Source of the DNA: Burkholderia mayonis
GTDB lineage: Bacteria; Pseudomonadota; Gammaproteobacteria; Burkholderiales; Burkholderiaceae
Direction: 5' to 3'
DNA: 64,000 nucleotides
Assembly (NCBI RefSeq): GCF_001523745.2
Contig: NZ_CP013386.1
Coordinates: forward strand, 2,976,001 to 3,040,000
The notes below the pieces were generated by a model. The model was not told the origin of the DNA. It was given only the letters and a program-made list of their open reading frames with translations, and did no database searches. Position 1 is the first letter of the stretch. Every line of letters begins with the position of its first letter. A program made the position numbers and the translations under genes. Positions 7,976 through 47,091 of this stretch are shown here, piece by piece.

Positions 7976-8199
7976 TTGGCTAGCGCCCGCAAAATATCGC
8001 GGTCATCGTGCATGATCTCTTCCGCCAACTTCATCTGGCGTTCAAAATCCGGGTTGTACGGCGTAATCCGATAACCACCTTCGGGGGCCTCGGTCAGATA
8101 AACGATATCGCCCTTCTGCACCTTGAGCCGTGCCATCGCCTCCTTGGTAAGAATGAAACCGGCAGAAGCCCCGACAGTTGTGACCTTGAAAGTAAGCAT
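7972..8199 (-). CDS. AbrB/MazE-type antitoxin
   Basis: A 75-residue protein whose N-terminal half has the swapped-hairpin AbrB pattern (LTKEAMARLKVQKGDIVYLT), followed by a charged C-terminal tail expected to bind the toxin. It pairs with the overlapping Doc-type gene. A near-perfect inverted repeat 13 bases upstream of its start is the likely autoregulatory operator. Confidence 0.87.
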   Translation of the reverse strand: MLTFKVTTVGASAGFILTKEAMARLKVQKGDIVYLTEAPEGGYRITPYNPDFERQMKLAEEIMHDDRDILRALAK

Positions 8200-8211
8200 G
8201 GCGCCCTCCTC

Positions 8212-8235
8212 GCTATATAATCACCATTATATAGC
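8212..8235 (-). promoter_or_regulatory. Operator/promoter of the Doc/AbrB module
   Basis: Perfect 10-bp inverted repeat: GCTATATAAT (8212-8221) and ATTATATAGC (8226-8235), around CACC. It is AT-rich in a GC-rich context and lies directly before the antitoxin start. It contains TATAAT-like -10 sequences on both strands, so it could control both the toxin-antitoxin unit and the divergent gene at 8260. Confidence 0.7.
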
Positions 8236-8259
8236 AATTGCCTACCCAAAGGACAAGGA

Positions 8260-9372: not shown

Positions 9373-9515
9373 ACATTTTCAGTGGCGTGCAGAATATCAA
9401 AATAACCAGCCTACCAAAGCTGCGCCTTCTGTCCGGCCGTCCGGGAAGAAAGCGCTCCGACATTGAGCAAGAACGAAAAGAATCCGTGTCAAATATTCGA
9501 TCCGCAGTGGAGCAC

Positions 9516-10475
9516 TCAGAGGTCGAGAATAAGCTTGCCGCACTTCGCGCCAGAAACACAGACCATCATCGTCTTGTTACCCGTCTTCTCAGCCGTACTC
9601 AGTACCGAGTCGCGGTGATCAGGGCATCCTTCCAGCACGCGCGTCTCGCACGCACCGCAAATGCCCTCCCGGCAACTGTAATCGACGTCGATGCCGGCCT
9701 CCAACAAAGTATCAAGTAAGCTCTTGTCGACCGGCACCTCCAACGCCCTACTGCTCTTCGCAAGCTCGACGGTATAGCTTGCGCTCGGCGCCTGGATTAC
9801 GTTCGTCTCTGCGGCAAACCGCTCGATATGGACATTCACGATACCAGCGCCTTCGCATGCTGCCTCGAACGCCGTCAGCATCACCGAAGGGCCACAACAA
9901 TAGGCGTGCACATGCTTCGGTTGGGTCAAAAGGAATGCCACGAGATCGAATGGCTTTCCACCGTGCTCGTCGTCAAAATAAAGATCGACACTGCCTCCGA
10001 GTGCAGCAAGCTCGTCAAGAAACGCGGCCTGCGCACGACTGCGTGCACAATAGACGAGCCGCACGATCTTGCCTTCGCCGCGCAGGTGCCGGTACATACA
10101 TAGGATCGGCGTAATGCCGATGCCCCCCGCGACCAACACCGACGATTCGGCCGTCTCATCGAGCGCGAAATTGTTGCGTGGTTTGCCGACCGGCAGAGTC
10201 ATCCCGCAGCGAAAGTTCTCGTGCACATATCGCGAACCGCCCCGGCTCTGGCGATCCGAAAGAATGCCCAGCACGTAACGATTCGACTCGGTCGGTGAAT
10301 TGAGCAGCGAATAGCTGCGCGTGAGGCCATTCGGCAAATGCAGGTCGACGTGCGCGCCCGCGCTGAACGCAGGAAAGCTCGAGCCGCTGACCGGCACCAG
10401 TTCGACACTAACCACACCTTCCGCTTCGTAGCGAAGCGTCCGGATGCGGGCATTCAGGAGTTCGGGATTGCTCAT
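9516..10475 (-). CDS. VanB/PDR-type oxygenase reductase
   Basis: A 319-residue single-chain electron-transfer protein. It has an FMN-binding domain with RSYSLLNSP (residues 53-61), an NADH domain with GGIGITPILCMYRHL (117-131), and a C-terminal plant-type 2Fe-2S domain with C268, C273, C276 and C306. Such reductases feed electrons to Rieske oxygenases like VanA. The Rieske oxygenase is encoded just upstream in the same operon, with RidA between them, so this is its likely partner. It is the last gene of the catabolic operon. Confidence 0.9.
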   Translation of the reverse strand: MSNPELLNARIRTLRYEAEGVVSVELVPVSGSSFPAFSAGAHVDLHLPNGLTRSYSLLNSPTESNRYVLGILSDRQSRGGSRYVHENFRCGMTLPVGKPRNNFALDETAESSVLVAGGIGITPILCMYRHLRGEGKIVRLVYCARSRAQAAFLDELAALGGSVDLYFDDEHGGKPFDLVAFLLTQPKHVHAYCCGPSVMLTAFEAACEGAGIVNVHIERFAAETNVIQAPSASYTVELAKSSRALEVPVDKSLLDTLLEAGIDVDYSCREGICGACETRVLEGCPDHRDSVLSTAEKTGNKTMMVCVSGAKCGKLILDL

Positions 10476-10535
10476 GATTAAATGCGCGAGGCACTCGACA
10501 TGCCTCGCGTCGTCAGGTTGTAAAACCGTCTGGCC

Positions 10536-10976
10536 TTACCTTGCCGCCTGAATCTGCGTCAGATCGAAATCGAGCCGAACGGTCGCGTCAATCTCAATCT
10601 TCAGCGCAGGAAATACGAGCCCCGATACTGCGACAAGAGTCGACGCGGGGTACGCGCCCAGCCCCGCGAAGAACTCGCGCCGGGCTCGCCCCACCTCGTC
10701 CTTGTCAGCGATATCCGTAACGTAGACCGTGAGCTTCACGATGTTCGCGATCGACCCGCCCGCTTCCTCAACCAACGCCCGGATCTTACCTAGTACCACG
10801 AGGGTCTGCTCGCGGGTCGAGAGCGGCCCTCCGGTATCGTCCAGTGTCGGATGCGCGGTCATACCGGACAGCACCAGCTCATTGCCGATCCGGATGCCGT
10901 TGGTCCAGCTAGCGTGCGGCAGATCCGGTACTGCGGGCGACACGATACGCGTCGCCTGAATGGACGTATCGCTCAT
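10536..10976 (-). CDS. RidA/YjgF family protein
   Basis: A 146-residue member of the RidA (imine deaminase) family, with LVLSGMTAHPTLDD and the C-terminal FPALKIEIDATVRLD typical of the trimer core. Family members hydrolyse reactive enamine/imine intermediates, and subgroup members act in aromatic or nitrogen-compound degradation. It overlaps the Rieske oxygenase gene by 4 bases (10973-10976), which suggests coupled translation and an imine or enamine intermediate in this pathway; the latter is inference. Confidence 0.88.
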   Translation of the reverse strand: MSDTSIQATRIVSPAVPDLPHASWTNGIRIGNELVLSGMTAHPTLDDTGGPLSTREQTLVVLGKIRALVEEAGGSIANIVKLTVYVTDIADKDEVGRARREFFAGLGAYPASTLVAVSGLVFPALKIEIDATVRLDFDLTQIQAAR

Positions 10977-11989
10977 TGCCCCCCCCTGTCGATCTCGGCC
11001 TGCGCAAGGTTCTTCAGGTGCCGGCGCAGCTTGACCACACCCATGTCGTGCTGATACAGATGCTCACGCTGATTGGCGTCCGGCTCCATGGCTTCCAGCA
11101 TCTCCCGATCCTGCTCGAGCACGGCCCAGTGACGCGCCTCCAACCGGTTCTCATAGAGGAAGCGCCACGCGTCGCGTTGCCAGCCCTGCAGCTTGCGGCA
11201 GCGCCAGTGAAACACGGCCGCTAGTTCGGGCGTGATCGGAGTGAAGCTGCCGACGATGACGAAATTTCCGCCAGGGCCGCCGGTCTTAGGATAGGGAATT
11301 TCGAGGCGCAGCCAGTGCAAGCCCGTGTCGGACCATTCGGTCCAGTCGAAATTCACGTCGCGCTGGCCTTCCTTTTCGAACACGAAGCCGGTCGCGGTAT
11401 CGCGCACACGGAAACTGGCCGCCTGGTCGCCAACGGCCATCGAATGAGACTGCTTATGTAGGTACGTGCCGTGCATCGGGTCCATCACGTTGTCCAGCAC
11501 ATAGCAATAATCGCCCTTCCATTCGGTATAGCAGAGGAATGACGAATACTCGTCCGATACAAGCTCTTCAGGCAGGCGTAGCGGCGGTGCCTCATCGACG
11601 GTGCCGTCCGCGTTATATAGCCAGATCACGCCATTTGCTTCGGTCAGATGAAACGACTGCACGGCGCGCATGCCTTCCAGCTTACAACCCGGACTGCCAG
11701 GCACGCTCGTCACCACTCCGTCCGCACGAATCTGTACGCCGTGATAGCCGCACGCGATGCGGTCGCCCAACACAATGCCCTTCGAAAGCGGCGCGCCACG
11801 ATGTGGGCAATGATCCTCGAGGGCGTGCGCACTGCCATCGGCATCGCGCCAAAGCACCAGCTTCTTGCCGAGCCTGCGCAGCGATACCGGATTCCTATCG
11901 ACAAAGCCCGACGGGCAAATCGGGAACCACAGATTGTGCAAGCCATCACGCAGAATGGTCGCGACCGTCTTTTGCTGTTGGATACTCAT
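10973..11989 (-). CDS. Rieske non-haem iron oxygenase, VanA-like alpha subunit
   Basis: A 338-residue ring-hydroxylating or demethylating oxygenase. The Rieske centre ligands are C61, H63, C80 and H83 (DHCPHRGAPLSKG and ACGYHG). The catalytic iron site is in DNVMDPMHGTYLHKQSH (H173, H178). The ATG at 11989 was chosen because GGAAAG lies upstream; a longer frame to 12022 lacks this. No beta subunit is encoded, as in the single-component VanA/dicamba-type oxygenases. Substrate is unknown. It works with the reductase at 9516. Confidence 0.9.
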   Translation of the reverse strand: MSIQQQKTVATILRDGLHNLWFPICPSGFVDRNPVSLRRLGKKLVLWRDADGSAHALEDHCPHRGAPLSKGIVLGDRIACGYHGVQIRADGVVTSVPGSPGCKLEGMRAVQSFHLTEANGVIWLYNADGTVDEAPPLRLPEELVSDEYSSFLCYTEWKGDYCYVLDNVMDPMHGTYLHKQSHSMAVGDQAASFRVRDTATGFVFEKEGQRDVNFDWTEWSDTGLHWLRLEIPYPKTGGPGGNFVIVGSFTPITPELAAVFHWRCRKLQGWQRDAWRFLYENRLEARHWAVLEQDREMLEAMEPDANQREHLYQHDMGVVKLRRHLKNLAQAEIDRGGQ

Positions 11990-12022
11990 GATGATTGCTT
12001 TCCGTTCAACACCGCGCGCCAC

Positions 12023-12244
12023 TCAATCGGCCGCGAGCCGTGCCATTTCGCTTACGAAGCCTTCTTTCGTCCACAGCGTACCGTCCTGCGGCCCCAGCCC
12101 AGTCTCGTTCAGATAGCGCACGATCGACGCCAGATCGTGAAAGCCCTGCGCAAACGCACGCTCAATCGCGTCTCCAAGCAGATTTTCGTATTGGGTCGGC
12201 TCGCGGCGGCGTGCCTGATGCGGTTCAAGATAACGATCCATCAT
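12023..12244 (-). CDS. Small protein with recombinase-like helix-turn-helix
   Basis: A 73-residue protein between the Rieske gene and the 116-residue unknown. Its C-terminal half (NETGLGPQDGTLWTKEGFVS) resembles the helix-turn-helix of serine recombinases. Similar tiny genes are known beside Rieske oxygenases, but I do not know a function. The start is one of two adjacent ATGs preceded by GGAGG. It overlaps the upstream gene by 4 bases, so it is part of the operon and probably structural to the pathway rather than a recombinase. Confidence 0.6.
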   Translation of the reverse strand: MMDRYLEPHQARRREPTQYENLLGDAIERAFAQGFHDLASIVRYLNETGLGPQDGTLWTKEGFVSEMARLAAD

Positions 12245-12591
12245 TGTCCTCCCTGGTGCACCCGCTCGCGAATCCGTTCGCGCACGGGCACAAAGTCGTA
12301 AGTCGGATAGCACTCAGTGCGGAAAACACCCCACGCCGAGCGCTCGAGTTCAACGTTAACCACTGGCAGCAATGCCGGCGGCAACGCGAGTGTGACGATC
12401 TGGCCGAACCCCATCGCCACGGTCCACGACACGATCGTCGTGCCTTTCGGCGGGAAGCGCTCCCACCAATCGGCCTCTTTCAGCCGAGACTGGAACGCAT
12501 CGAGATTGTTCGACTGGTCATGCCGCAGGAAAATCGTCAGCAGCATCATGTCGGTGCCGCCTTCGGCCGCACCCGCTGGTTTATCGCTCAT
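12241..12591 (-). CDS. Hypothetical operon protein, 116 residues
   Basis: Not recognised. A soluble protein with no signal peptide, rich in Trp/Arg in the middle (SRLKEADWWERFPPKGTTIV) and with a hydrophobic VTLALPPALLPVVNVEL segment. It overlaps the next small gene by 4 bases and ends only 1 base after the substrate-binding-protein gene's stop, which ties it to the oxygenase/ABC operon. A dimeric ferredoxin-like barrel is possible but unproven. Confidence 0.6.
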   Translation of the reverse strand: MSDKPAGAAEGGTDMMLLTIFLRHDQSNNLDAFQSRLKEADWWERFPPKGTTIVSWTVAMGFGQIVTLALPPALLPVVNVELERSAWGVFRTECYPTYDFVPVRERIRERVHQGGQ

Positions 12592-12592
12592 A

Positions 12593-13627
12593 TCACTCCA
12601 CGAATTGGTTGGTAAATAAATCTTTCAAGTCGACTCTGGTTCGAATGATCTTCTGCGCAAAATAGAAGTCCTGCAGCCGTTCCACGCGCGCTGGATCGAA
12701 CGCGCCAATCGTCGTCTGTCCCGGATAGACATGCTGTGCGTAATACGTCAGCACTTTGCTCACGAATGCCTCGCGCCCCTTCCATGACGGCACGGCAGCG
12801 ACATAGTCTTTCGCCGCGGCGGCAGGATTTCTTTCGATTTCCGCTAGCGCCTTCATCGATGCACGCACGAACTTGTGCACCATGTCGGGGCGCGCGGCGA
12901 TCATACGGTCCGACGCAAGAGTGGCTTGCGCCATCCCCGGAAAGTAGGCATCGGTCGACTGCCATACCAGCTTCGCTCCGGCTTCCTCGGCGCTTGCCGC
13001 CCAGTCGGGCGTGCCTACCATTGCATCGGCGCGTCCTTGGGCAAGGAGTTGCCAGATGCCCGACGGTCCCGCCGCCTGGATCGACACGTCTGATCGCGTA
13101 AGCCCACCCTTCGCGAGCACGGCGAGCGCAGCATAAAAGGACGTGTCCTGATACGACATAACAGTGAGGGTCTTGCCCTTCAGCACTGCGGGAATTGCTA
13201 TGTTTTCGTCGGAGCGCGTGACAAACTGATGTAGTGCGCGACCGCCGAACAGCGCGACGGCCTTCACGGGAATGCCGTTCTGGCGAAGTACGATCGGCGT
13301 GTCGCCGAGCGCTCCGCCCAGATCACCATTCCCCGCCGCGAGTTGCTTTCCCACTTCTGCGCCGCCCTGCACCGATACGAAGCGCACCGACAATCCCTCG
13401 TCGGCGTAGTAGTTCTTCTTCTGCGCGATCATCAGCGGCGCAAATGCAATCTCGCTTTGGGGCGCGGGCAGCAGATAGGTCACCTGCTGCATCGCACTCG
13501 GCGCGGCCTGCACCGCGCATCCCCAAGCGCACATCAGTGCCACGCCCATGCCGACCACGATGTGCCGACGCAGCGAAGGCAGCGACGCCGCAAACCCCGT
13601 GCTTTCACTCTTCATACTCATTTCCAA
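12593..13627 (-). CDS. ABC transporter substrate-binding protein (SsuA/NMT1-like)
   Basis: A 344-residue exported protein. After a basic N-terminus there is a hydrophobic signal (VVGMGVALMCAWGCAVQAA), then the NMT1/THI5-like fold: FAPLMIAQKKNYYADEGL and LAAGNGDLGGALGDTP. This branch binds sulfonates, taurine, pyrimidine precursors or aromatic acids. Permease and ATPase genes follow on the same strand upstream. It probably delivers the oxygenase substrate or a related compound; the ligand is unknown. Confidence 0.88.
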   Translation of the reverse strand: MEMSMKSESTGFAASLPSLRRHIVVGMGVALMCAWGCAVQAAPSAMQQVTYLLPAPQSEIAFAPLMIAQKKNYYADEGLSVRFVSVQGGAEVGKQLAAGNGDLGGALGDTPIVLRQNGIPVKAVALFGGRALHQFVTRSDENIAIPAVLKGKTLTVMSYQDTSFYAALAVLAKGGLTRSDVSIQAAGPSGIWQLLAQGRADAMVGTPDWAASAEEAGAKLVWQSTDAYFPGMAQATLASDRMIAARPDMVHKFVRASMKALAEIERNPAAAAKDYVAAVPSWKGREAFVSKVLTYYAQHVYPGQTTIGAFDPARVERLQDFYFAQKIIRTRVDLKDLFTNQFVE

Positions 13628-13664
13628 CTCTCCCGACTACGAATCGACCGCGGATGAGCCGCGT

Positions 13665-14441
13665 TCACACGGTTTTCATGCTGGCACGGGGCAGGTAATG
13701 CAGCACCCTTCTTTCAAGCCACACCACAGCGGCATAGGCCAGCACGCCGATGATGGTCAGCCCCACAATGGAGACGAATACCATCGCGGTATTTCCTTGT
13801 CCTTCGCCATACACCAGCAAATAGCCCAGCCCCTTGTCGCCGCCAACGAGTTCACCTACGGTGACGCCGATCACCGCGAGCGTCGACGCGATGCGCAGGC
13901 CGGAAAACAACGCCTGCATCGCAGATGGGAACTCCACGAACTGAAACACCTGCCAGCGCGAGCCGCACATCGCACGCACGAGGTTCACCATGTCTGGATC
14001 CACGGTGCGCACGGCACGCAGCACGTTGACCATCACCGGGAAGAATACGATCAAGACCGCTACGACGATCTTCGGATATACCGTGTAGCCCATCCACATT
14101 ACGAAAAGAGGCGCGAAAGCCACCTTGGGCGCAATCTGAAGTGCGAGGATATAAGGTGAAAGGACGGTTTCAGTCGTAGGAGAAAGGCCGAGTGTCACGC
14201 CAATCGCGACACCAAGCGCGGACCCCAGTACGAAACCTGCAATTACCTCGAGAGCCGTGATCCCAGTGTGCTGTATGAGATTTTCCGAACCGAACATGCG
14301 CAGTGCCTCATCAACGGTTGCGCTCAGCTTCGGCAGAACGAACTCGGGAATACCCAAAGCCGAAGGCCCCCATTGCCAGGCGGCAAGGAAGAAAACGAGC
14401 AGTAGCAGACTGCCCAGTGTCATTTTCAATTTGATAGCCAT
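13665..14441 (-). CDS. ABC transporter permease (SsuC/TauC-like)
   Basis: A 258-residue inner-membrane permease with about six hydrophobic segments and the cytoplasmic coupling loop (EFPSAMQALFSGLRIASTLAV) of binding-protein-dependent importers in the nitrate/sulfonate/taurine class. It lies between the ATPase and substrate-binding-protein genes of the same importer, all on the minus strand. Confidence 0.9.
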   Translation of the reverse strand: MAIKLKMTLGSLLLLVFFLAAWQWGPSALGIPEFVLPKLSATVDEALRMFGSENLIQHTGITALEVIAGFVLGSALGVAIGVTLGLSPTTETVLSPYILALQIAPKVAFAPLFVMWMGYTVYPKIVVAVLIVFFPVMVNVLRAVRTVDPDMVNLVRAMCGSRWQVFQFVEFPSAMQALFSGLRIASTLAVIGVTVGELVGGDKGLGYLLVYGEGQGNTAMVFVSIVGLTIIGVLAYAAVVWLERRVLHYLPRASMKTV

Positions 14442-14490
14442 AGTCGATACCCGTGCAAATTGAACTGTGATGCGAATCCGTTACCGCAAA

Positions 14491-15342
14491 CTAGCCAAGG
14501 TGCTCTTCCCTTCCTACCTTGAGCAGCTCCATCAATCGCGCCACGTAGTCATTCATGTGGAGCAGCTTGCGGCGCTCAAGCGGATTTTCGCGAAGAGGAA
14601 GGTCGATGACGATCTCTTCGATAATCGTTCCCGGGCGCTCGCTCATCACATACACACGATCGGATAACGCAATCGCTTCAGCCAGATCGTGGGTAATCAG
14701 TAATGCGGTCTTCTGTTCGGACGCAAGCATCTGTGCGAGGTCTTGTTGCAAGACCATCTTGGTCTGCGCATCGAGCGCGGAAAACGGCTCATCCATGAGC
14801 AACACGCCCGGCTCCACCGCAAGCGTTCGAGCAAGCGCCGCGCGCTGGCGCATGCCGCCGGACAACTGATGCGGGTAATGAGACTCGAAACCCTTGAGAT
14901 GGCAGCGCTCAAGCAACTCCATAGCGCGCGATCGCCGTTGAGCAACAGGCACGCCGCGAATCTGCATGCCTAACTGTACGTTTTGTTCGATGGTGCGCCA
15001 TGCCATGAGAAGATCTTTTTGCAACATGAAGGCAACCTCCAGCGATGGCCCGGTCACCCGCCGCCCGTTCACATACACCTCGCCCTCGCTCGGCGCGTAC
15101 AGGCCGGCTCCCATATTCAGCAAGGTGCTCTTGCCGCAACCGCTCGGACCGATGAGGGAGACCACTTCCCCACGGCGCATGGCAATCGATACATTGTCCA
15201 CGGCCGTCATCAACGTGTTGCCGTGCTTGGCCGGAAATCGCCTTGTCACGTGCCGGAACTCAATCGCATACGTGACCTGCTCTCGTTCGCCGCCATTCGC
15301 GAATGCTTGCGCTTCTTTCTCAACTCCGGAAAACATAAACAT
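14491..15342 (-). CDS. ABC transporter ATPase (SsuB/TauB-like)
   Basis: A 283-residue nucleotide-binding subunit. Walker A is GPSGCGKST, the signature is LSGGMRQRAALARTLA, Walker B is VLLMDEPFSALD, and the H-loop is ITHDLAEA. It energises the importer formed with the next two genes. The first about 25 residues precede the domain and are unusual, so the start could lie slightly downstream. Confidence 0.92.
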   Translation of the reverse strand: MFMFSGVEKEAQAFANGGEREQVTYAIEFRHVTRRFPAKHGNTLMTAVDNVSIAMRRGEVVSLIGPSGCGKSTLLNMGAGLYAPSEGEVYVNGRRVTGPSLEVAFMLQKDLLMAWRTIEQNVQLGMQIRGVPVAQRRSRAMELLERCHLKGFESHYPHQLSGGMRQRAALARTLAVEPGVLLMDEPFSALDAQTKMVLQQDLAQMLASEQKTALLITHDLAEAIALSDRVYVMSERPGTIIEEIVIDLPLRENPLERRKLLHMNDYVARLMELLKVGREEHLG

Positions 15343-15461
15343 GGAATACCTTCAGAATTCGAAAAGATAGTGAATCGAGAACTTCAACGATCGCAGAAGT
15401 CGAGACGCACACCATTCTTGCGAACGTGTTCGTGATCTTTACATTGTCTCCAACACATATT

Positions 15462-15608
15462 CATCGTGGGGCAACCACATAGCGCAGCACCCGACTTTGT
15501 GAGTGTGCGTGTGCGAGCAGGTTCTCCAGCAGGATGTCGCATAGTTGCCGATGCGCCGCGGGCGAGCGGCCTGCAATATGCGGAGCGACGATGACGCAGG
15601 GATTGCGT
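15462..15608 (-). pseudogene. C-terminal fragment of a D-2-hydroxyacid dehydrogenase
   Basis: Reading on the minus strand from the IS border to TGA at 15464-15462 gives 48 residues. They include CVIVAPHIAGRSPAAHRQL, the conserved C-terminal catalytic-histidine region of NAD-dependent D-2-hydroxyacid dehydrogenases, then a normal-looking tail. Everything upstream (about 250 residues) is absent and replaced by the IS5-family element at 15610. The dehydrogenase was probably part of the catabolic operon and is now inactive. Confidence 0.75.
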
Positions 15609-15609
15609 A

Positions 15610-16433
15610 GGGTCTGTTTACATTCGATGAAATGTGTTTACATCTTGTTTTTTGCACAAGCGGGCCAAGATGATTCGAAAGTTACTGAGCGACGAGGTAT
15701 GGGCACGAATCGAATCTGTGTTGCCGGGCAAGGAAGGCGACCCAGGAAGAACGGCGGCCGACAATCGCTGGTTTGTCGAAGCGGTTCTCTGGATTGGCCG
15801 AACCGGCTGCCCGTGGCGCGATTTGCCAAAGGCGTTCGGACGATGGCATACGGTGTACATGCGCTTCTCCAGATGGCGTCGCAAGGGTGTGTGGGAACGC
15901 GTGATCCACGCCGTGGCCGACGAAACCGAGATCAAGCATGTGTTGATCGATTCGACCATCGTGCGTGCGCACCAGCATTCGTCCGGAGCTCGAAAAAAAC
16001 GGTCCGCAACGCTCGGCCGCTCGCGGGGCGGACTGACCACCCAGTTGCACCTGGCCGTCGATGACGCCGGACGCCCGCTGCGGTTGATTGCCACCGAGGG
16101 GCAAGTCACCGATATTTCGTGTGCGAATGAACTGGTTGAGCCTCTGCGCACCGGGGCGGTCATCGCCGACAAGGGCTACGACTCGAACGCCTTTGTAGAG
16201 AGCATCCGCGCTACACGTGCGAAGGCCGTCATCCCGCCGCGTTCGAACCGAAAGACCAAGCGTCGCTATAGCCGCGTGCTGTATCGGACCCGGAACATCG
16301 TCGAACGCTTTTTCAATCGCATCAAACATTTTCATCGTGTCGCCACTCGCTACGACAAGCTTTCAGGCAACTATTTCGCCTTCGCCTCGCTTGCCTGTGC
16401 CTTTGGGCCGCTGGTGAGAATGTGAACAGACCC
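15610..16433 (+). mobile_element. IS5-family (IS427-like) insertion sequence
   Basis: An 824-bp element with terminal inverted repeats GGGTCTGTTTACATTC (left) and GAATGTGAACAGACCC (right), one mismatch, flanked by TA on both sides. It carries one transposase gene. The flanks do not rejoin into a sensible gene: the left flank is the 3' end of a dehydrogenase gene and the right flank the 3' end of a VOC gene. An adjacent deletion must therefore have accompanied or followed insertion, and the TA pair cannot be read as a simple target duplication. Confidence 0.85.
15670..16425 (+). CDS. IS5-family transposase, single reading frame
   Basis: A 251-residue DDE transposase starting MIRKLLSDEVWARIESVLPG. 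The catalytic acids are D94 (VLIDST), D167 (VIADKGYDS) and E212 (NIVERFFNRIK), with the Y-R-K spacing of IS5 relatives. Many IS427-group elements need a frameshift between two ORFs; here the frame is continuous and looks functional. An in-frame ATG 36 bases upstream would add a non-conserved leader. Confidence 0.9.
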   Translation: MIRKLLSDEVWARIESVLPGKEGDPGRTAADNRWFVEAVLWIGRTGCPWRDLPKAFGRWHTVYMRFSRWRRKGVWERVIHAVADETEIKHVLIDSTIVRAHQHSSGARKKRSATLGRSRGGLTTQLHLAVDDAGRPLRLIATEGQVTDISCANELVEPLRTGAVIADKGYDSNAFVESIRATRAKAVIPPRSNRKTKRRYSRVLYRTRNIVERFFNRIKHFHRVATRYDKLSGNYFAFASLACAFGPLVRM

Positions 16434-17368
16434 TAGTCTTTCCCGCCTCGAGCGAGTTGCTGCCGTGTCCAGGCCGCCTCGGCACGACCCTGCATAACCG
16501 CGCGCAAGGCGGCCGGGGGCGGCCCGGCCGTCATCCATTGGTCCATGGCATCCGGTTTGTCACGCGGCCAGATCTTCGGCACATGGGTGGCTTCGTCGAT
16601 CTGCTGTACTTCCGACGTGTACTCGATTACGAAGCCCGAAGGAGACACAAAGTACGCAAACGTGTTGTCGCCTGGCCCGTGACGGCCCGGCCCCCACGCA
16701 GGTGTCTGGCCCTGCGCTCTCATGCGTCCAATACCGCGCATGAAGCTGTCGAGGCTCGGCATTCCGAAGGCGACGTGATTGAGGCTTGGATACGGCCCCT
16801 TGTTGAAGGCAATCGAATGATGTTCAGACGTGCAACGCAGGAACACCATCATTTCGCCCGAATAGTCGCTCGTGCGAAAACCCAGCACGTCGCAATAGAA
16901 GCGCTCCATCCTGGCAAGATCGGGCGAATTGAGCACGACATGACTGATCTTGCTCGGCTGGGCCACACGGTCTTCCGTCTCCGGATGACACGCAACATCG
17001 GAAGAGAATCGCAGACGGCGCCCCTCAGGATCGATCGCATCGAATCCATAGCCGCCGCCGGGTGTCGCAAGTCGTGCGGGAGGCGTGCCAACCACAACGC
17101 CATCGGCCTGCAATTGCTCGTAGAAGCGGTCGACGGCCATCGCGTCCACCAGCGCGAAATGGAGATAGTCGATGCCGTGGTAAGCAGCATCGCGCAGCGC
17201 ATATATCCACTGCTCGCCCAGTGTTCCGCGAAAATAGACAGTTTCCGGTTGCGCCGCCGGTACTTTGGCAAGCCCCCACTGATCACGAAAAAACGGTGCG
17301 GAAATCGTTGCGCTGGGCGCACAAACGGCAATACCACGCAGACTCTGGACAGCAACACGTTCGATCAT
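16433..17368 (-). CDS. VOC-family (extradiol dioxygenase-like) protein
   Basis: About 311 residues with two vicinal-oxygen-chelate modules: an N-terminal one with YLHFALVDAMAVDRFYEQL and a C-terminal one with ISHVVLNSPDLARMERFYCDVLGF, LNHVAFGMPS and FVIEYTSEV. This resembles catechol 2,3-dioxygenase-type extradiol enzymes, with metal ligands H and E (HVVL, HVAF, EYTS). The stop TAG is completed by the last base of the IS element, so the native C-terminus may differ. ATG 17368 is preferred over an upstream in-frame ATG. Confidence 0.8.
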   Translation of the reverse strand: MIERVAVQSLRGIAVCAPSATISAPFFRDQWGLAKVPAAQPETVYFRGTLGEQWIYALRDAAYHGIDYLHFALVDAMAVDRFYEQLQADGVVVGTPPARLATPGGGYGFDAIDPEGRRLRFSSDVACHPETEDRVAQPSKISHVVLNSPDLARMERFYCDVLGFRTSDYSGEMMVFLRCTSEHHSIAFNKGPYPSLNHVAFGMPSLDSFMRGIGRMRAQGQTPAWGPGRHGPGDNTFAYFVSPSGFVIEYTSEVQQIDEATHVPKIWPRDKPDAMDQWMTAGPPPAALRAVMQGRAEAAWTRQQLARGGKD

Positions 17369-17550
17369 TTCGACGCTCCGTTCGACACACACGACACGAC
17401 AGCTTCCGGCCGCTCGCGTTGCGTCACGCAAAAGAAATCGCCCAGCAACACGCTCCGGGTTGCAGGGAGCTCTGCGCAGCGCATACTTCCCACTCTCGGT
17501 GCACTCGTCCGGTATTCAACGACAACGGAACGGTCCCGCTCATGCCTGCC

Positions 17551-18480
17551 TCACGCTGCACGGAAGTCGACACTTTCCAGTGCTCCGCTGCCGATGGTCA
17601 TCATGAACTGCGCGTTCTCACAACCGTCGTTACGGAAATAATGCGGCCGTCCGGCCGGATTGAAGATCAGATCATGCACACCCAATCTCTGCTCGACGAC
17701 TTGGCTCCCCAGCTCCCAGCCCACCGTCACCACACCGTCGATGACGAGATAAGCATCCTCGACATTCCGCTCATCAAATTGAATGCCTTCCCCGGGAGCA
17801 AGATGGACGAGATCCATGCGATAGGTGCCGGCCGGCGCGCCGCCCTCGCCCACATGTACTTTCTTTGAAAAGCCTGGCATGCGAATCACCGGCTGCTGGC
17901 TATGGCGCACCAGATGCCTGGATAGTTCACGGTGACGCGGATCGTCGCTCTCCGGATCAAAATCGTAGGTCTTTCCGAGTGCGGCGCCGAAGCGGGCAGC
18001 AAGTTCGGGATCGCCATCGCGCGGATGTATCGCAAATGCCGTCGGCAACGGCTTGCCGCTGCCGACGCTGATCGAAGCGAGCACCGGCTCGAAACCTTCG
18101 TTCTTGAAGCCGTGAACACGGTTACGCAGATTTAGACACAGGTCCTTTCGGCCAAGCCGCGCCTCTATCGCCTCGTCGCCCCAGAGCCATACGGCCGTGA
18201 GCACACCGCCCAAAACGAGAAACGACTCTTCGACTTCGTGCGAATGGCTTGACGCATATTTGCCGACCGGTTGGCTCACGAGGCTCACCGTGAAATGCTT
18301 TGCTTTGAGCGTATCTGGGTCGTCGGACTTCGGCGACCCGCCCGCGCCAACATAGCGCATCTGCGCACGAGCCAGCTGCGGATACCCCTCATTGAATGTA
18401 CACGCGCCCCAGTCGAACGTCTTGTGATGGTGCTTCCCAATGAAGGACCGCATCTCTGCTTGCGCGTTCTGGAATTCCAT
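17551..18480 (-). CDS. Bicupin protein
   Basis: A 309-residue protein with two cupin barrels. The first has SSHSHEVEESFLVLGGVLTAVW and the second has EGIQFDERNVEDAYLVIDGVVTVGW followed by AGRPHYFRNDG. The first cupin keeps the HXH...E metal pattern; the second lacks the paired histidines, so one metal site is likely. It is the first gene of the minus-strand catabolic operon. It could be a ring-cleavage dioxygenase or an isomerase; this cannot be decided from the sequence. Confidence 0.75.
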   Translation of the reverse strand: MEFQNAQAEMRSFIGKHHHKTFDWGACTFNEGYPQLARAQMRYVGAGGSPKSDDPDTLKAKHFTVSLVSQPVGKYASSHSHEVEESFLVLGGVLTAVWLWGDEAIEARLGRKDLCLNLRNRVHGFKNEGFEPVLASISVGSGKPLPTAFAIHPRDGDPELAARFGAALGKTYDFDPESDDPRHRELSRHLVRHSQQPVIRMPGFSKKVHVGEGGAPAGTYRMDLVHLAPGEGIQFDERNVEDAYLVIDGVVTVGWELGSQVVEQRLGVHDLIFNPAGRPHYFRNDGCENAQFMMTIGSGALESVDFRAA

Positions 18481-18668
18481 GTTCGTCTCGTCCCGTTCGC
18501 TGTGGTGTCGTGAGGGATGGGGTGGCCTGTCTGAGCAACCCTGGGCAGTTCGCTGCCCACACCGCGCTGTGTTGCGAAAAATTCTATGGACGGTCATTTT
18601 TGAAAACAATGGAAAATCACTTAACCTACGGTCAAGTCATCTTCGATACGCCGAACGTCACCTCGATC

Positions 18669-19589
18669 ATGCAACTCGCCTCAATTAGTGCCAGACACAT
18701 GGAAATTTTTGCAGCCATGATGACGAGCAACGGCATGGCAGAGGCAGCCGCGCGCCTTGCCATATCGATGGCGGCGGTGAGCAAGGCAATAGCGGTCATC
18801 GAGCGAGAAGCGGGTGTAAAACTTTTCGCGAAGGTGGGGGGGCGACTGCAGCCGACGGCGGAAGCTGAACGTGTGTTCCCTGCGATTCAACGCGCGCTGA
18901 ACCAGTTAGAATACGCTCGCAACGAGCTTCGCCGCCCTTCCATTCAGAGTCCGCAGCGTATCGTGATCGCTTCGGGGGGAGCGGCCCTGGCGCATCTGGT
19001 CCCTGAAGCGTTGCGACGCACGCTCCGCGAATTCCCCGATATTCAGGCAGAGGTCAATTCCAACCGCACTGCCACCATCCTCAGCATGGTGGCGAATCAC
19101 GAGATCGACGTGGGCGTGACGACGCCACCCGTACGCGACGTCGACGCGCGAATCCTGCAGCTGTGCGAGACCCGGGACATCTCAAAGGTCGCACTTGTGG
19201 CAGTGGTGCACAAAGATCATGAGTTGGCCACCCGCCGATTGATACGCCCTGCCGATCTCAATGGCGTACCTCTCGTCACGCTCAGTGCTCAGTCCCCCAC
19301 CACGCAACTCGTTGAAGCAACGTTCCATCAGGCTCACGTACCAATGCGGATCGCTGTGGCGGCCGGAAACAGCTTGACGGCCTGCTGCCTTGCCGAGCAG
19401 GGCCTCGGCGTCGCGCTGATTAACCCGGAAACGCTTTCGGAGCAGATCTTTCCCTCCCTGCGTACCGTACCGTTTCGTCCGCGGATCACGCTTCGAACGT
19501 GCGTTTACTTGCCAAAATTTCAGGCAGAAACTCCACTGCTGACACGATTCGTTGCGCACCTCTTGCAAGTAGCTGCACGAAATAGATGA
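18669..19589 (+). CDS. LysR-type transcriptional regulator
   Basis: A 306-residue LysR protein from the chosen ATG. The N-terminal helix-turn-helix is EAAARLAISMAAVSKAIAVIE, followed by LFAKVGGRLQPTAEA and a periplasmic-binding-like effector domain ending LPKFQAETPLLTRFVAHL. Two further in-frame ATG codons upstream would only add a non-conserved leader. It is divergent from the bicupin gene and is the obvious candidate activator of the catabolic operon. Confidence 0.88.
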   Translation: MQLASISARHMEIFAAMMTSNGMAEAAARLAISMAAVSKAIAVIEREAGVKLFAKVGGRLQPTAEAERVFPAIQRALNQLEYARNELRRPSIQSPQRIVIASGGAALAHLVPEALRRTLREFPDIQAEVNSNRTATILSMVANHEIDVGVTTPPVRDVDARILQLCETRDISKVALVAVVHKDHELATRRLIRPADLNGVPLVTLSAQSPTTQLVEATFHQAHVPMRIAVAAGNSLTACCLAEQGLGVALINPETLSEQIFPSLRTVPFRPRITLRTCVYLPKFQAETPLLTRFVAHLLQVAARNR

Positions 19590-19610
19590 CGCACCTCCGC
19601 TATTAGGGCG

Positions 19611-19743
19611 TGTTCACACTATCCAAGTCCATCGACAATAAGCGCGAAGCTGATGAAAGCGAGGAACTGAGCTTCCCCTGAAATTTCGCCTTCGCCTCGC
19701 TTGCCCGCGCCTTTGGGCCGCTGGTGAGAATGTGAACAGACCC
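19611..19743. mobile_element. Scar of two IS ends joined head to head
   Basis: The part 19683-19743 repeats the last about 61 bases of the IS at 15610-16433 with two mismatches, including the terminal AACAGACCC. The part 19614-19675, read on the minus strand, encodes EAQFLAFISFALIVDGLG and a stop, then GTGAACACGCCC, which looks like the 3' end of another IS5-family transposase plus its terminal repeat. Both elements are otherwise gone. Confidence 0.65.
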
Positions 19744-19869
19744 TAGCAGATGGTCGGCCACTCGAGAAGGGATCGCTTGTTGCCGCTCGGGAGATCATCG
19801 TCAGGGCTGGCGATAGGCGTCAGATGCCGACTTTTGGGACCACAAACATGAGCATCACGGATGAGCACA

Positions 19870-19895
19870 TTTATGTGGACTATAGTGCGCATAAA
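19870..19895 (+). promoter_or_regulatory. Candidate ccd promoter/operator
   Basis: Inverted arms TTTATG (19870-19875) and CATAAA (19890-19895) flank a TATAGT -10-like sequence (19881-19886). This lies before the proposed native ccdA start at 19920. Its presence inside the longest open frame argues that this stretch is promoter rather than coding sequence. Confidence 0.4.
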
Positions 19896-19919
19896 TTCCA
19901 ACATCAAAGGAACGAGCAT

Positions 19920-20156
19920 ACGGCAACCGACACCATCCCGCGCCGGGCTACCAACATCAGCCTGCCCGAGGACGTCTACAAGGACGCGAAGGAACTCGGG
20001 ATCAACTTTTCGCAGACGTGCGAGCGGGCAATCCGGCAGGCAGTACAGGTGGAGAAGGATCGTCAGTGGGCGATCAAATATACGGACTTTATCCAGGCTT
20101 ACAACGACATGGTCGAGCGCGACGGCCTGCCGCTTGCTCAGTACCGGACGTTCTGA
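19920..20156 (+). CDS. ccdA: CcdA-type antitoxin
   Basis: Antitoxin of a Ccd pair: a ribbon-helix-helix N-terminus (RRATNISLPEDVYKDAKELG) and a C-terminal toxin-binding tail ending LPLAQYRTF. Counting from codon 19920 gives the canonical 78 residues, but that codon is ACG, not ATG. AAAGGA lies 8 bases before it. ATG codons at 19824 and 19848 are in frame but would translate through a promoter-like region. It ends in a TGATG overlap with ccdB. Confidence 0.8.
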   Translation, partial: TATDTIPRRATNISLPEDVYKDAKELGINFSQTCERAIRQAVQVEKDRQWAIKYTDFIQAYNDMVERDGLPLAQYRTF

Positions 20157-34557: not shown

Positions 34558-34702
34558 CAGCGATGCCACCGCCCCCCCATCGAGCGATGCCAGTTTCGAT
34601 GCCGCCGCCCAGAATCCCCCGCTTGCCTTCCCCACCCAAACCCCAGTAGAATCGCGCATTCCGCGGGCGTCGTATAATGGCCATTACCTCAGCTTCCCAA
34701 GC
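34558..34702 (+). repeat. Left island border: duplicate tRNA-Gly promoter and 5' half
   Basis: Collinear with 46912-47056 (offset 12354, no gaps). Bases 34663-34702 are identical to the first 40 bases of tRNA-Gly(CCC), ending in the anticodon stem. The upstream 105 bases are diverged but keep TTGCCT (34623-34628), an 18-base spacer and TAGAAT (34647-34652). The tRNA 3' half is missing, so any transcript would be an orphan 5' half. Interpreted as the left attachment site. Confidence 0.8.
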
Positions 34703-39938: not shown

Positions 39939-41087
39939 ATGACACTCATCCGTCGAAACAATAGCAAGAACTGGTATTACCAATTCCAAATTCAGGGCAA
40001 GAAGTTCTTCGGTTCCACCGGGACGCCGAACAAGACGAAGGCCGCTCAGGTCGAACGCGAGATGCGCAATCGAGCGCACGCCGAGCAGTATCTCGGGGAT
40101 GCACAGCCCATCACGCTCAAGGATGCCCTGGAACAATATGTCGAGGCGCGAAGCGAAACGTCCTATCACCGGAACATGTGCTCGATCGTTCGGAAATCGC
40201 TCGGCTATAAGCTTCATCCGAGAACGAAAGCCAAGCTTCCCTGCTATGGCATGTCGCCTGATACGCTGCTGCATGAACTGACAACGCGCGATTTCGATCT
40301 TCTCGTCGCAAAGCGCAAGGCCGAGGGTGACAAGCCCGCGACGATCAAGCATGAGATCGGACTGCTTCGCGCGACGATCAACGAGATGGCGAAGCTTGGA
40401 TTCAAAGTCAGTCGAGATATCGTTTTTCCAGAGCTTAGGACTTCGTATAGGCTTCGATATCTGGATTCTAACGACGAGTCGGCGTTATTGCTCGAACTTG
40501 ATCCGGAACGGCTTAGAGCGCGTATAAACGCGTCTAAACCGCAGACACCCGAGATGACGCGAAATATGCAGGATAACTACGATATCACAGTTTTCCTGCT
40601 CGATACGGGGTGTCGCTACTCGGAGGTCGCGAACATTCCGTGGTCGGCGATCAACATCGATGCCTGCACGATCAGCCTCTATCGGAGCAAGGTGCGGAAT
40701 GAAGATGTACTGCACATGACCTCCCGACTCGAAGCGATCCTTCGTCGTCGGTGGGAGGAACGCCGACAGGGGCAGCGATACGTGTTTGAGGATCGCTCCG
40801 GCAACGAGCGCGGCTACAGCACGAAGTCGATCAAGAAGGCAATCGAGCGGGCCGGACTCAATGATCCCGTTCTCGTCAAGGAACGCGGTGGGCGCGCCAC
40901 CCTGCACACGCTCCGGCACACGTTCGCGAGCAAGCTCGTCAAGGCGGGCGTCAGTCTGTATGAGGTGTCGGTCTTGCTCGGCCACAGTGATCCGAAGATG
41001 ACGCAGCGCTACGCGCACCTCAGCCCGAACGACGCGAGCCGGAAGGCCGTAAAAGTCATCGACTCCCTGCTGCTCAATCCTGCGTGA
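39939..41087 (+). CDS. Tyrosine recombinase / island integrase
   Basis: A 382-residue integrase. An N-terminal arm-binding segment (WYYQFQIQGKKFFGSTGTPN) and core-binding helices precede the catalytic domain. The catalytic residues are R226 (DTGCRYSEV), H323 and R326 (HTLRH), H349 (LLGHSDPK) and nucleophile Y358 (TQRYAHLSP). All are present, so it could be active. It is the only recombinase in the tRNA-Gly island and probably mediated insertion there, though it lies mid-island rather than beside either border. Confidence 0.9.
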   Translation: MTLIRRNNSKNWYYQFQIQGKKFFGSTGTPNKTKAAQVEREMRNRAHAEQYLGDAQPITLKDALEQYVEARSETSYHRNMCSIVRKSLGYKLHPRTKAKLPCYGMSPDTLLHELTTRDFDLLVAKRKAEGDKPATIKHEIGLLRATINEMAKLGFKVSRDIVFPELRTSYRLRYLDSNDESALLLELDPERLRARINASKPQTPEMTRNMQDNYDITVFLLDTGCRYSEVANIPWSAINIDACTISLYRSKVRNEDVLHMTSRLEAILRRRWEERRQGQRYVFEDRSGNERGYSTKSIKKAIERAGLNDPVLVKERGGRATLHTLRHTFASKLVKAGVSLYEVSVLLGHSDPKMTQRYAHLSPNDASRKAVKVIDSLLLNPA

Positions 41088-43821: not shown

Positions 43822-44673
43822 ATGAATGCGGATGGCAATCCCGGTAATGCCGTAAGCCCAACTGATTCGGCCGTTGAGCGGATTCGAACCGAACTCGAAA
43901 AACTGAATCCGAGCACGAAGCGGCGAATCCTCGAGAAATTCGCTCTGGCAGCACTCGGCAGTATTCCTTGGGTGGGCGGATTCATCAGCGCACTGGCGAG
44001 CGTCAAGACCGAAGAATCCGGTTTGCGAACATCGTCACTTCAGACTCAATGGCTGGAGCAACATCAGTCCAAGATGGAAACATTGAGCGCAACCATGCAG
44101 GAAATCGGCCGTCGGTTCGAGGCGATTGGCGAGGAAATCGACGAACGTCTGTCGAGCGAAGAATATCTCGACATCGTTCGCAAGGCTTTCCGTGCGTGGG
44201 ACAAAGCAGACACCGAAGAAAAGCGCCGCTACGTGGCGAATCTCGTTACGAACGCCGCAGGGACGAGACTCTGCTCAGACGACGTGATTCGGCTCTTCAT
44301 CGACTGGCTGGACAACTACCACGAATCGCACCTCGCCGTCATTCGCGAGATTTTCAAGAACCCCGGCTCGACGCGATTTGACATCTGGACGTCGATCTAC
44401 GGTAATCTCGTCCGCGAGGATTCGGCAGAAGCCGACCTGTACAAACTATTGATCCGTGACCTCAGTAGCGGCGGAGTCATACGCCAGACGCGAGACACAA
44501 ACGCCGATGGGCAGTTTCTGCGAAAACAACCAACACGAAAGCCATCTCTACCAGCAAGTGCTACGATGGAATCGGCGTTTGAGGGCAGCAAACAATACGT
44601 GCTGACGGAGCTTGGTAAGCAGTTTGTGCACTACTCCATGAACGAGGTTGTTCAGCGAGTATCTGGCGAATAG
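43822..44673 (+). CDS. Hypothetical protein with one hydrophobic helix, possible effector
   Basis: A 283-residue protein. A hydrophobic, Gly-containing segment (FALAALGSIPWVGGFISALA, about 40-59) is followed by a predicted coiled region (LEQHQSKMETLSATMQEIGRRF) and a C-terminal winged-helix-like part. A membrane-inserting segment next to a sensor-like region recalls conflict-system effectors, but no family is recognised. It is convergent with the RelA/SpoT-domain gene, ending 44 bases away. Confidence 0.6.
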   Translation: MNADGNPGNAVSPTDSAVERIRTELEKLNPSTKRRILEKFALAALGSIPWVGGFISALASVKTEESGLRTSSLQTQWLEQHQSKMETLSATMQEIGRRFEAIGEEIDERLSSEEYLDIVRKAFRAWDKADTEEKRRYVANLVTNAAGTRLCSDDVIRLFIDWLDNYHESHLAVIREIFKNPGSTRFDIWTSIYGNLVREDSAEADLYKLLIRDLSSGGVIRQTRDTNADGQFLRKQPTRKPSLPASATMESAFEGSKQYVLTELGKQFVHYSMNEVVQRVSGE

Positions 44674-44717: not shown

Positions 44718-45707
44718 TTAAAGCACCTTGCTCGCCTTTCCCAGATCAGCCATGATTGTTCGTACATCGTTGGCATATCTCTCAATAGGCCATGACTCAA
44801 ACGCAGCCGAGCCATGTTCGTCAATCAACGAGTATGCGAGCAGGCACATCGGTCGGTCGAACAACGAGTTGCTACCAACACGGGCGGCGATCTTCTTCGC
44901 CAGAGCAGGCAGAGTAACGAGCTCGCGCAATTTTTCGCGATTCGTTTGCGTTAGCCAGTCGCGATATTTGCTCAACACTGTCATGGTATCGTCGTCATTG
45001 GTTGACACATCGCGATGTCCCGTGACTTGGGCATAGACATCAGGCAAGAACCGAAGCCATTCTTCGCGCTCCGTATTCACCTGATTTAACTCTTCAAGCG
45101 CCTCACAGAACATGCTGTCCGTGGTTTCCATCAGCGCCATGCATCGAGCAACCAGTCGCCTCGTGGACGAAGGTACTACGCCCGCTGGCTTGTAAATGTT
45201 GTCATGCACGAGTTCCGCATATGCATGCTGCAACAACGTTCGCACTTGGACTTCGCATGCAAGATCCGCTGGCACTTCAACATCGTTGAGTACCAGCTTG
45301 CTCTTATTTCTTGCGAGATAGTGGACCGACTGATAATCGAAGACCATTGGCTCCTGGCTGATTTCGAATGACGGGTCACGCTCCCTGCTAAGCGTCCAGT
45401 CAGTGCAGTGAGCCAAAGCCTCCTCTAGTATGTCGATGTCCGTGCGCACTAAAACGATGAAGCGTGCCCCCACTAGATCCGTGATCTGCCTGCCTGGATC
45501 CGTGTAACCTTTCCTGTCGATTTTCTCGAAAGCGGACTTGGCGCTCTTCACCCGATAGGTCGGCTCCACCTTGAAGAAGGATTCAAACCTACGCTCTCCG
45601 ACCTCGCCTCGCACTCGATCAGTGACTCGCTGGACGACAAACTTCCCCCACTCCTCAAGTGCGGGAGATAGGTTGCCAAGCCACTGATCGACTTCGTCTC
45701 GGGTCAT
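44718..45707 (-). CDS. RelA/SpoT-domain protein (alarmone synthetase-like)
   Basis: A 329-residue protein. Residues about 45-180 form a RelA/SpoT nucleotidyltransferase domain: YRVKSAKSAFEKIDRK (51-66), ITDLVGARF (75-83), YQSVH (125-129) and CEVQVRTLLQHAYAELVHD (151-169). These contain the acidic and ATP/GTP-site residues of ppGpp synthetases. No HD hydrolase domain is present. The about 150-residue C-terminal helical part is unassigned. Such stand-alone domains can make alarmones or act as toxins modifying tRNA (toxSAS, CapRel). It overlaps the NdpA-like gene by 4 bases and is translated after it. Confidence 0.8.
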   Translation of the reverse strand: MTRDEVDQWLGNLSPALEEWGKFVVQRVTDRVRGEVGERRFESFFKVEPTYRVKSAKSAFEKIDRKGYTDPGRQITDLVGARFIVLVRTDIDILEEALAHCTDWTLSRERDPSFEISQEPMVFDYQSVHYLARNKSKLVLNDVEVPADLACEVQVRTLLQHAYAELVHDNIYKPAGVVPSSTRRLVARCMALMETTDSMFCEALEELNQVNTEREEWLRFLPDVYAQVTGHRDVSTNDDDTMTVLSKYRDWLTQTNREKLRELVTLPALAKKIAARVGSNSLFDRPMCLLAYSLIDEHGSAAFESWPIERYANDVRTIMADLGKASKVL

Positions 45708-46771
45708 TCCTGTGACTGAAGTGTGCCGTTGATGGTAACCGTAGTTACCCCATCAACAGACGTATCGATAGAAACAAGCTCCTTCAGTTTGTCAGGTGGC
45801 GTAGAAATCACTACGTCCCCCGAAAAAACCATTCGCTGTCGCCGTTTAAGCTTCGCTTTGATGTACTCCGTGTTCTTAGATACCGCATGCACCGGAAAGT
45901 TGGCACGCTCCATGAAATCGCAATACTCGTCACGTGTAGCCCGCTCAAAGTGTTCGTCCGCAAAGTCAGCGACGCTGAGGGTCTGTTTGTTGCTCCGGAG
46001 TTCTGAACGCAACGCATCGACAAGATCCATACGGTCCTCTGGCTCGAAGCCGCGCGAGTTGATGAACTCGATAGTACGTTCGTAGAAGTCCTGTGTCAGA
46101 CGCTTGTCTGAAGCAGCGATGTCAGCGCCCATGAACCCGCTGTAGAAATACAGCGCAGCACTTCTTGTCTCCGTGCCTGTCATCAAGTGGTCGAAAAGAT
46201 GCATCACGAAATGCTCTCGCTGGTATGGCTGAGCACGCCCTGCATTCCCATCGATCTGTTGCACGTACCCTATCTTATACAGGCGCTGACTATCCGTTAG
46301 AAAGATATTGGTCAGGTAGTCAATCTGTGTCTGCTGCCCGTGCCTCGTCTCCCCTAGTCCATCCTGCATTTCTGCTTTGATGACCGCCATAAATCGGCGT
46401 TGCACTCTTCCCACGACACCCGAAACAACAATCAGCTTGCTCGGCGGCAAATCCCGCATGACTTGCGCAGCAGCCAAGTCATGCGCCATCTGACGACTCA
46501 TCTCCATGAATTGACCATCGTCGGTGTGCATAGCATCGGCAGCATTCTGAAAAAAGCTGCCCGGACCCGCGTCCCTTATATCGACCTCGATGCCGTGCGA
46601 CCGATGCCCGAGTGCCTGCACAATCCGTCGCGTAAACATATCCATCGCTCCCGGCGGCAAGTGCAGCAAGTCGTCAGCGTAATTTGGCTCGACGACGTTT
46701 CTGTCCACATCCCGTTGATTGATGTGATGAACAACCAGTCGCTCTATGACGAGCAAGTCCAACGTCAGCAT
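45704..46771 (-). CDS. NdpA/YejK-type nucleoid-associated protein
   Basis: A 355-residue member of the 37-kDa nucleoid-associated protein family (NdpA/YejK-like). It starts MLTLDLLVIERLVVHHINQR. Family-like regions are MSRQMAHDLAAAQVMRDLPP, REHFVMHLFDHLMTGTETRS and the later FADEHFERATRDEYCDFMER. Housekeeping members bind the nucleoid. Here it is the first gene of a two-gene operon with a RelA/SpoT-domain protein, inside an island, which suggests a DNA-sensing or antitoxin role; this is inference. Confidence 0.75.
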   Translation of the reverse strand: MLTLDLLVIERLVVHHINQRDVDRNVVEPNYADDLLHLPPGAMDMFTRRIVQALGHRSHGIEVDIRDAGPGSFFQNAADAMHTDDGQFMEMSRQMAHDLAAAQVMRDLPPSKLIVVSGVVGRVQRRFMAVIKAEMQDGLGETRHGQQTQIDYLTNIFLTDSQRLYKIGYVQQIDGNAGRAQPYQREHFVMHLFDHLMTGTETRSAALYFYSGFMGADIAASDKRLTQDFYERTIEFINSRGFEPEDRMDLVDALRSELRSNKQTLSVADFADEHFERATRDEYCDFMERANFPVHAVSKNTEYIKAKLKRRQRMVFSGDVVISTPPDKLKELVSIDTSVDGVTTVTINGTLQSQE

Positions 46772-46911
46772 GGTCCCTCAGCGTGTAGTTATTACGAGCG
46801 CGCCGAGTGTGACACATTCCTGCCGGCCGAGGAAAGCTACCGGCACAAGCACTGTACATTTATACAGTACACCATTGCGCGGGCAGATGCCACCCGTCGA
46901 ACGGACGATGC

Positions 46912-47056
46912 CAGCGAAGCCACCGCTTCGCCATGCAGCCATGCCAGTTTCGATGCCACCAGCCAAACTCCCCCGCTTGCCTTCCCCACCCAAACCCCTG
47001 TAAAATTACATATTCTGCGGGCGTCGTATAATGGCCATTACCTCAGCTTCCCAAGC
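46912..47056 (+). repeat. Right island border with island-supplied tRNA promoter
   Basis: Gap-free counterpart of 34558-34702. The last 40 bases are the tRNA-Gly 5' half and identical. Upstream, TTGCCT (46977-46982), an 18-base spacer and TAAAAT (47001-47006) form the promoter of the functional tRNA. Since this side lies inside the island, the promoter was probably brought in by the island. Confidence 0.75.
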
Positions 47057-47091
47057 TGATGACGTGGGTTCGATTCCCATCGCCCGCTCCA
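47017..47091 (+). tRNA. tRNA-Gly (anticodon CCC)
   Basis: 75 bases including an encoded CCA. The acceptor stem GCGGGCG/CGCCCGC is perfect, the anticodon arm is TCAGC-TTCCCAA-GCTGA with anticodon CCC at 47050-47052, and the T-arm GTGGG-TTCGATT-CCCAT is standard. It reads GGG codons. Its 5' half coincides with the island repeat. Confidence 0.96.

Follow-up and report, generated by a model that had tools for sequence, protein, structure and literature searches.

A mobile gene pair encoding a YejK/NdpA-type protein and a stand-alone RelA/SpoT-type synthetase as a candidate conflict module

Stand-alone RelA/SpoT-type synthetases (SAS) serve bacteria as starvation enzymes, as toxins or as phage sensors. 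The stretch of Burkholderia mayonis DNA analyzed here (64,000 nucleotides of contig NZ_CP013386.1, positions 2,976,001 to 3,040,000, hereafter the window) carries an SAS gene whose start codon lies inside the stop codon of a gene for an NA37 (YejK/NdpA-type) protein. Among described two-gene systems, toxic SAS (toxSAS) proteins are toxic without their partner and act by pyrophosphorylating tRNA CCA ends or by synthesizing (pp)pApp (PMC11559606, PMC11782079). The toxSAS proteins FaRel2, PhRel, CapRel and FaRel resemble the window protein in being stand-alone synthetases of two-gene units on mobile DNA, and the FaRel2 ATP-site residues R64, K66, S70, K74, D90, R95, E145 and Q147 (PMC11782079) have counterparts in it. 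CapRel offers a precedent for defence based on a synthetase, as it recognizes a phage protein in combination with host FtsZ (PMC13423816). On the NA37 side, E. coli YejK is cited as a DNA-binding, nucleoid-associated protein that contacts gyrase and topoisomerase IV (PMC10561277, PMC9927451), and NdpA2 acts with TprA to regulate transfer of the integrative and conjugative element (ICE) PAPI-1 (PMC8565334). In the DefensePredictor study (DeWeirdt, Mahoney and Laub 2026), 42 E. coli units restrict phage, the YejK nucleoid-associated domain is among the domains new to defence, and a YejK-domain transcription unit protects E. coli MG1655 (PMC13092281). That unit is like the present one in containing a YejK-domain gene, and the available text names neither its partner nor a DS number. 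Literature searches returned no description of an NA37-SAS pair and no synthetase of this kind tied to a nucleoid protein, so the preliminary description's statement that no described system has this pair holds with the qualification that a YejK-domain defence system, its partner unnamed in the available text, is in print (PMC13092281).

The two window genes exceed the cut-offs of their Pfam families (NA37, PF04245, 36.3 bits against 24.6; SAS, PF04607, 52.7 bits against 27) and sit at the right-hand end of an island of 12.4 kb bounded by 145-bp repeats that are 87% alike (Table 1). Relatives were gathered with a synthetase profile search, viral contigs coming from IMG/VR, and the resulting 145 loci comprise the best 80 of 103 one-per-species genome relatives, 61 viral contigs and four loci from a plasmid collection. 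At 141 of these loci NA37 is the gene immediately upstream of SAS, in fixed order, and the genes overlap by four bases in 98 of the 141 pairs (89 of 121 once redundancy is removed, the window pair among them). Of the four loci without an upstream NA37, three are contig ends (L031, L124, L135); the fourth, L013, has an upstream region of intact length without NA37, and its SAS lacks the N-terminal 72 profile positions. A reverse search from NA37 in viral contigs found SAS adjoining in 58 of 60 loci (57 by a distance rule, L235 by eye), the other two stopping at a contig edge; since these are mostly the same contigs as in the SAS search, the count is a check of direction and not new data. Chance adjacency is ruled out by these counts and by the canonical YejK loci, none of which (0/30) had an SAS partner within 3.9 kb. 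Most positions conserved in the SAS-linked NA37 set differ in these 30 canonical proteins. The fold of the window NA37 protein matches 9be2, with only 12% identity in the alignment.

The SAS protein consists of a catalytic part (residues about 1-175) and an all-helical C-terminal part (180-321), and its structure model has a predicted local distance difference test score (pLDDT) of 95.2. It is predicted to be catalytically intact: residues R52, K54, K62, D77, R82, H129, E152, Q154, H168, Y172 and K173 are kept in all 132 aligned SAS proteins, and this invariance of the catalytic core rules out loss of catalysis. The preliminary description's main structural claims, an island-borne pair overlapping by four bases, stand (the overlap recurs in most pairs), and the checks it set on conserved adjacency beyond close relatives and on retention of catalytic residues came out in its favour, at 141/145 loci across phyla and in 132/132 sequences. 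In VIA-align comparisons the SAS fold is closest to RelQ (YjbM) and RelP (YwaC/SAS2), which are free-alarmone synthetases, and further from tRNA-modifying toxSAS; a profile search of the PDB returned RelP/RelQ-type synthetases at 1e-18 to 6e-15, with CapRel behind at 2.3e-6. Unlike RelQ and RelP, the SAS has an extra all-helical C-terminal region to residue 321, an obligate NA37 gene and a mobile, patchy distribution. We make no claim of a new fold for the C-terminal part, because VIA-align barely tested it.

The pair occurs in Proteobacteria, Clostridium (L034), Planctomycetota (L025), Kiritimatiellae (L068), Nitrospinaceae (L055) and Streptomyces (L008), and the genome relatives outside the group rule out a purely local Burkholderia oddity, although the nearest relatives that carry a name are Burkholderia proteins. 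Its settings are tRNA islands, plasmids, the 61 IMG/VR contigs, E. coli islands and a P2-like prophage. The SAS-linked NA37 branch is rare and patchy: strong matches were found in 3 of 398 genomes of the phylum, and SAS was present in all three. Distances in the NA37 and SAS trees correlate across 112 pairs with r 0.865 (1000 permutations reached 0.12 at best), which as a mirror-tree result points to co-inheritance of the two proteins and not to contact between them. The broader statement that every stand-alone RelA/SpoT gene has an NA37 neighbour was not adopted: among five matches, L003 and L004 lack one, L005 has only a weak NA37 match (4e-5), and L002 has an N-terminally truncated SAS without NA37. 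Similarly, 14 plasmid records match SAS, but only the five that also match NA37 belong to the family; the other nine have no NA37 match, and their SAS match spans 41-60% of the query.

We put at about even the chance that the pair is a mobile two-gene conflict module, with NA37 as regulator and probable sensor and SAS as effector. NA37 and SAS would be translated from a shared message and would bind each other, with SAS kept inactive in the complex. The trigger would be a phage or rival element that disturbs what NA37 watches; our guess, by analogy with YejK, is that NA37 might guard the DNA state or topoisomerases. Freed SAS would then pyrophosphorylate a nucleotide, most likely guanosine nucleotides and less likely tRNA ends, and the outcome could be a growth stop or, at loci with a SLATT-type membrane gene, activation of the SLATT protein. 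Within the window's clade the operon is probably under LexA repression, so that DNA damage would raise its level. The defence or toxin interpretation of the preliminary description thus finds partial support in a coupled, conserved and mobile unit with intact catalytic residues; the complex, the sensing, the toxicity, the product and the role in defence we infer.

Several observations weigh against such a module. Neither protein is assigned to a known system by PADLOC, whose only match to SAS is a weak one to PDC-S33 (35 bits), and a search of 50,697 phage records gave only three matches to SAS, all partial, and none to NA37. The enrichment near defence genes that the preliminary description proposed as a check speaks for the module, but as a hint: 131 nearest-neighbour proteins (nearest genes of at least 150 residues from L010-L089) matched 150 PADLOC families at 1e-15 and 131 random proteins matched 23, and this tally counts families, not proteins. 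A SLATT-type gene is absent from the window and from 105 of 120 non-redundant loci, a set from which L009, L044 and L139 (split frames) and near-duplicates were dropped. Furthermore, a full NA37 is not always needed, because at L033, L120 and L127, which are non-redundant, an intact SAS stands beside an NA37 of which the N-terminal half or more (profile positions 1-217 to 1-277) is not recognizable; the missing NA37 piece was looked for at these loci and not found.

Alternatively, the pair could be a plain toxin-antitoxin (TA) system for element maintenance, with NA37 as antitoxin and autoregulator, SAS as toxin and any effect on phage secondary, which we consider possible but rather unlikely. 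The layout is that of a type II TA system, with two adjacent, co-oriented genes (141/145) in antitoxin-like order that usually overlap (98/141) and are borne on elements. The one locus with an upstream region of intact length but no NA37 (L013) has an N-terminally shortened SAS, and NA37 is retained at two loci where SAS is split (L009, L044), which favours a restraining role for NA37. However, NA37 (355 residues) is bigger than its supposed toxin and differs in fold from the small known toxSAS antitoxins, an intact SAS stands next to the truncated NA37 of L033, L120 and L127, and an optional SLATT gene is not a usual part of TA systems. L009 (8001-10047), although drawn from the plasmid collection, is on an N. 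gonorrhoeae chromosome; there an intact NA37 is followed by an SAS split into two frames.

Cyclic-oligonucleotide-based antiphage signalling systems (CBASS) and SLATT systems resemble the pair in combining a nucleotidyltransferase-fold enzyme with an optional two-transmembrane (2TM) SLATT-type neighbour. They differ from it in that a RelA/SpoT-type synthetase here takes the place of the CD-NTase and SLATT is mostly missing. By this comparison NA37 would sense, SAS would make a diffusible signal, and a 2TM SLATT protein, adjacent or encoded elsewhere, would kill. A SLATT/DUF4231-type gene does immediately adjoin the pair, in the same orientation, at 15 of the 120 loci (12 upstream, three downstream), and it was gained more than once (six Fitch changes, against at least 11 in shuffles). 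Two of four such genes tested pass the Pfam cut-offs (L006, DUF4231; L015, SLATT_4), and the SLATT_4 matches of L181 and L141 fall below them. The E. coli SLATT protein weakly matches PADLOC 2TM effector models (24.6 bits), and the SAS fold is closest to free-alarmone synthetases. Nevertheless, since SLATT is missing from the other 105 loci and the window, and a response of SLATT to an alarmone is a supposition, we regard CBASS-type signalling as unlikely; a functional SLATT link, if there is one, would connect alarmone signalling with membrane-effector immunity.

Among 5,426 E. coli genomes, five carry the pair. In SCU-102 (L181 9539-15716) the island comprises tRNA-Thr, an integrase, SLATT, NA37 and SAS, followed by PsyrTA on the opposite strand; in BEC1 and KFu023 the pair is accompanied by DUF4231, and in L725 and CEC15 it lies inside a P2-like prophage.

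Upstream of the window pair, at its candidate promoter, lies the sole copy of the LexA/SOS-box-like palindrome CTGT-N8-ACAG in the window, a motif that also precedes lexA (two copies) and recA of the same genome. Genome-wide the motif is not in excess (40 copies, against 36 for the reversed control), so the argument rests on the position of the box and its AT-rich spacer, with at least 7 A/T of 8 in 11 of the 40 genomic sites. A promoter and terminator scan was uninformative. The motif stands upstream of NA37 at 9 of 115 loci, where 0.8 would be expected and control palindromes gave 0, 1 and 0; this count leaves out truncated NA37 and short upstream regions, and its start points are our own choice of start codon. 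Among the 12 leaves nearest the window the box is present in eight and absent from L010, L030 and L014, the last with a one-mismatch version; L012 is cut off. The motif thus appears to be a putative operator for LexA control of the pair in the window's clade and not family-wide. A separate observation is that CTGT-N8-ACAG pairs 888 bp apart recur at four places in the genome (C1:323789, 540849, 2623892; C2:523143), and so mark a repeated element, perhaps an insertion sequence.

A non-conflict regulator pair that tunes host growth and element transfer under SOS, on the model of NdpA2 and TprA in the control of PAPI-1 transfer (PMC8565334), would suit the LexA box of the window's clade and carriers such as islands, ICE-like elements and prophages, but it is quite unlikely because the box is found at only 9 of 115 loci and because such unrelated carriers (tRNA islands, a P2-like prophage, plasmids) fit cargo better than an element's own regulator.

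NA37 also heads a second unit. In three genomes (L248-L250) a low-scoring PF04245 match is followed by an overlapping protein of 479-504 residues with no Pfam match above cut-off. Relatives of this partner of about 490 residues occur on plasmids, and of six such regions examined four (L277-L280) have NA37 directly upstream; L276 has a partial copy beside IS26 without NA37, and L281 is without annotation. All seven partner proteins from NA37-headed loci (about 480-530 residues) have two to three hydrophobic segments in the C-terminal third. The seven loci amount to at most six distinct cases, because the first 60 residues are common to L249 and L279. The neighbours of L278 include DUF262 genes and a gene annotated as an anti-phage phospholipase D. 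Scans of viral contigs did not find the partner, and a search of E. coli did not find the pair. With SAS, an optional SLATT and this membrane protein as partners, NA37 looks like a common first gene with exchangeable partners. It is a tentative and rather doubtful extension that NA37 proteins serve mobile conflict systems in general as sensors, guarding the state of the chromosome or its topoisomerases and wired to exchangeable effectors, either an alarmone synthetase, alone or with a SLATT pore switched on by the synthetase product, or the membrane protein; if true, immunity based on a nucleoid-associated protein would be a first, and so, in the SLATT form, would an alarmone-gated membrane effector. 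The strict, widespread NA37-SAS unit offers a concrete object for asking what accessory YejK/NdpA proteins do on mobile DNA and by how many routes an alarmone-type enzyme is linked to a sensor in bacteria, and the E. coli copies make both questions testable in K-12.

Table 1. Coordinates of the NA37-SAS pair, its island and the second NA37 unit (window positions unless a locus is named)
Feature	Location	Strand	Detail
Gene 1, NA37 (YejK/NdpA-type) protein	45704..46771	-	355 residues
Gene 2, SAS	44718..45707	-	329 residues
ATGA overlap, gene 1 stop / gene 2 start	45704..45707	-	
LexA/SOS-box-like palindrome CTGT-N8-ACAG	46852..46867		81 bp upstream of gene 1 ATG
Left repeat (att) of island	34558..34702		
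Right repeat (att) of island	46912..47056		runs into tRNA-Gly
Tyrosine integrase of island	39939..41087	+	PF00589, 9.6e-25
tRNA-Gly(CCC)	47017..47091	+	integration target
Second NA37 unit, L248	4436-6858		
Second NA37 unit, L249	3664-6148		
Second NA37 unit, L250	555-3139		
Second NA37 unit, L277	1994-4437		
Second NA37 unit, L278	1845-4377		
Second NA37 unit, L279	1689-4173		
Second NA37 unit, L280	1767-4449		

The left end of the window island carries a copy of the first 40 nucleotides of the tRNA-Gly gene, and its other genes include a helix-turn-helix gene, a DUF5343 gene and orphans. One orphan, a plus-strand gene of 283 residues convergent with SAS (window 43822-44673), has one hydrophobic stretch (residues 40-58) and no Pfam match. 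A search of 12 other members of the genus found the tRNA and the right flank as one unbroken match in seven and separated from each other in five. The separation points to further insertions there, and the tRNA-Gly site thus seems to be an insertion hot spot. A second low-GC stretch lies at 8000-20000 of the window, with a GC content of 0.56-0.61 against about 0.67.
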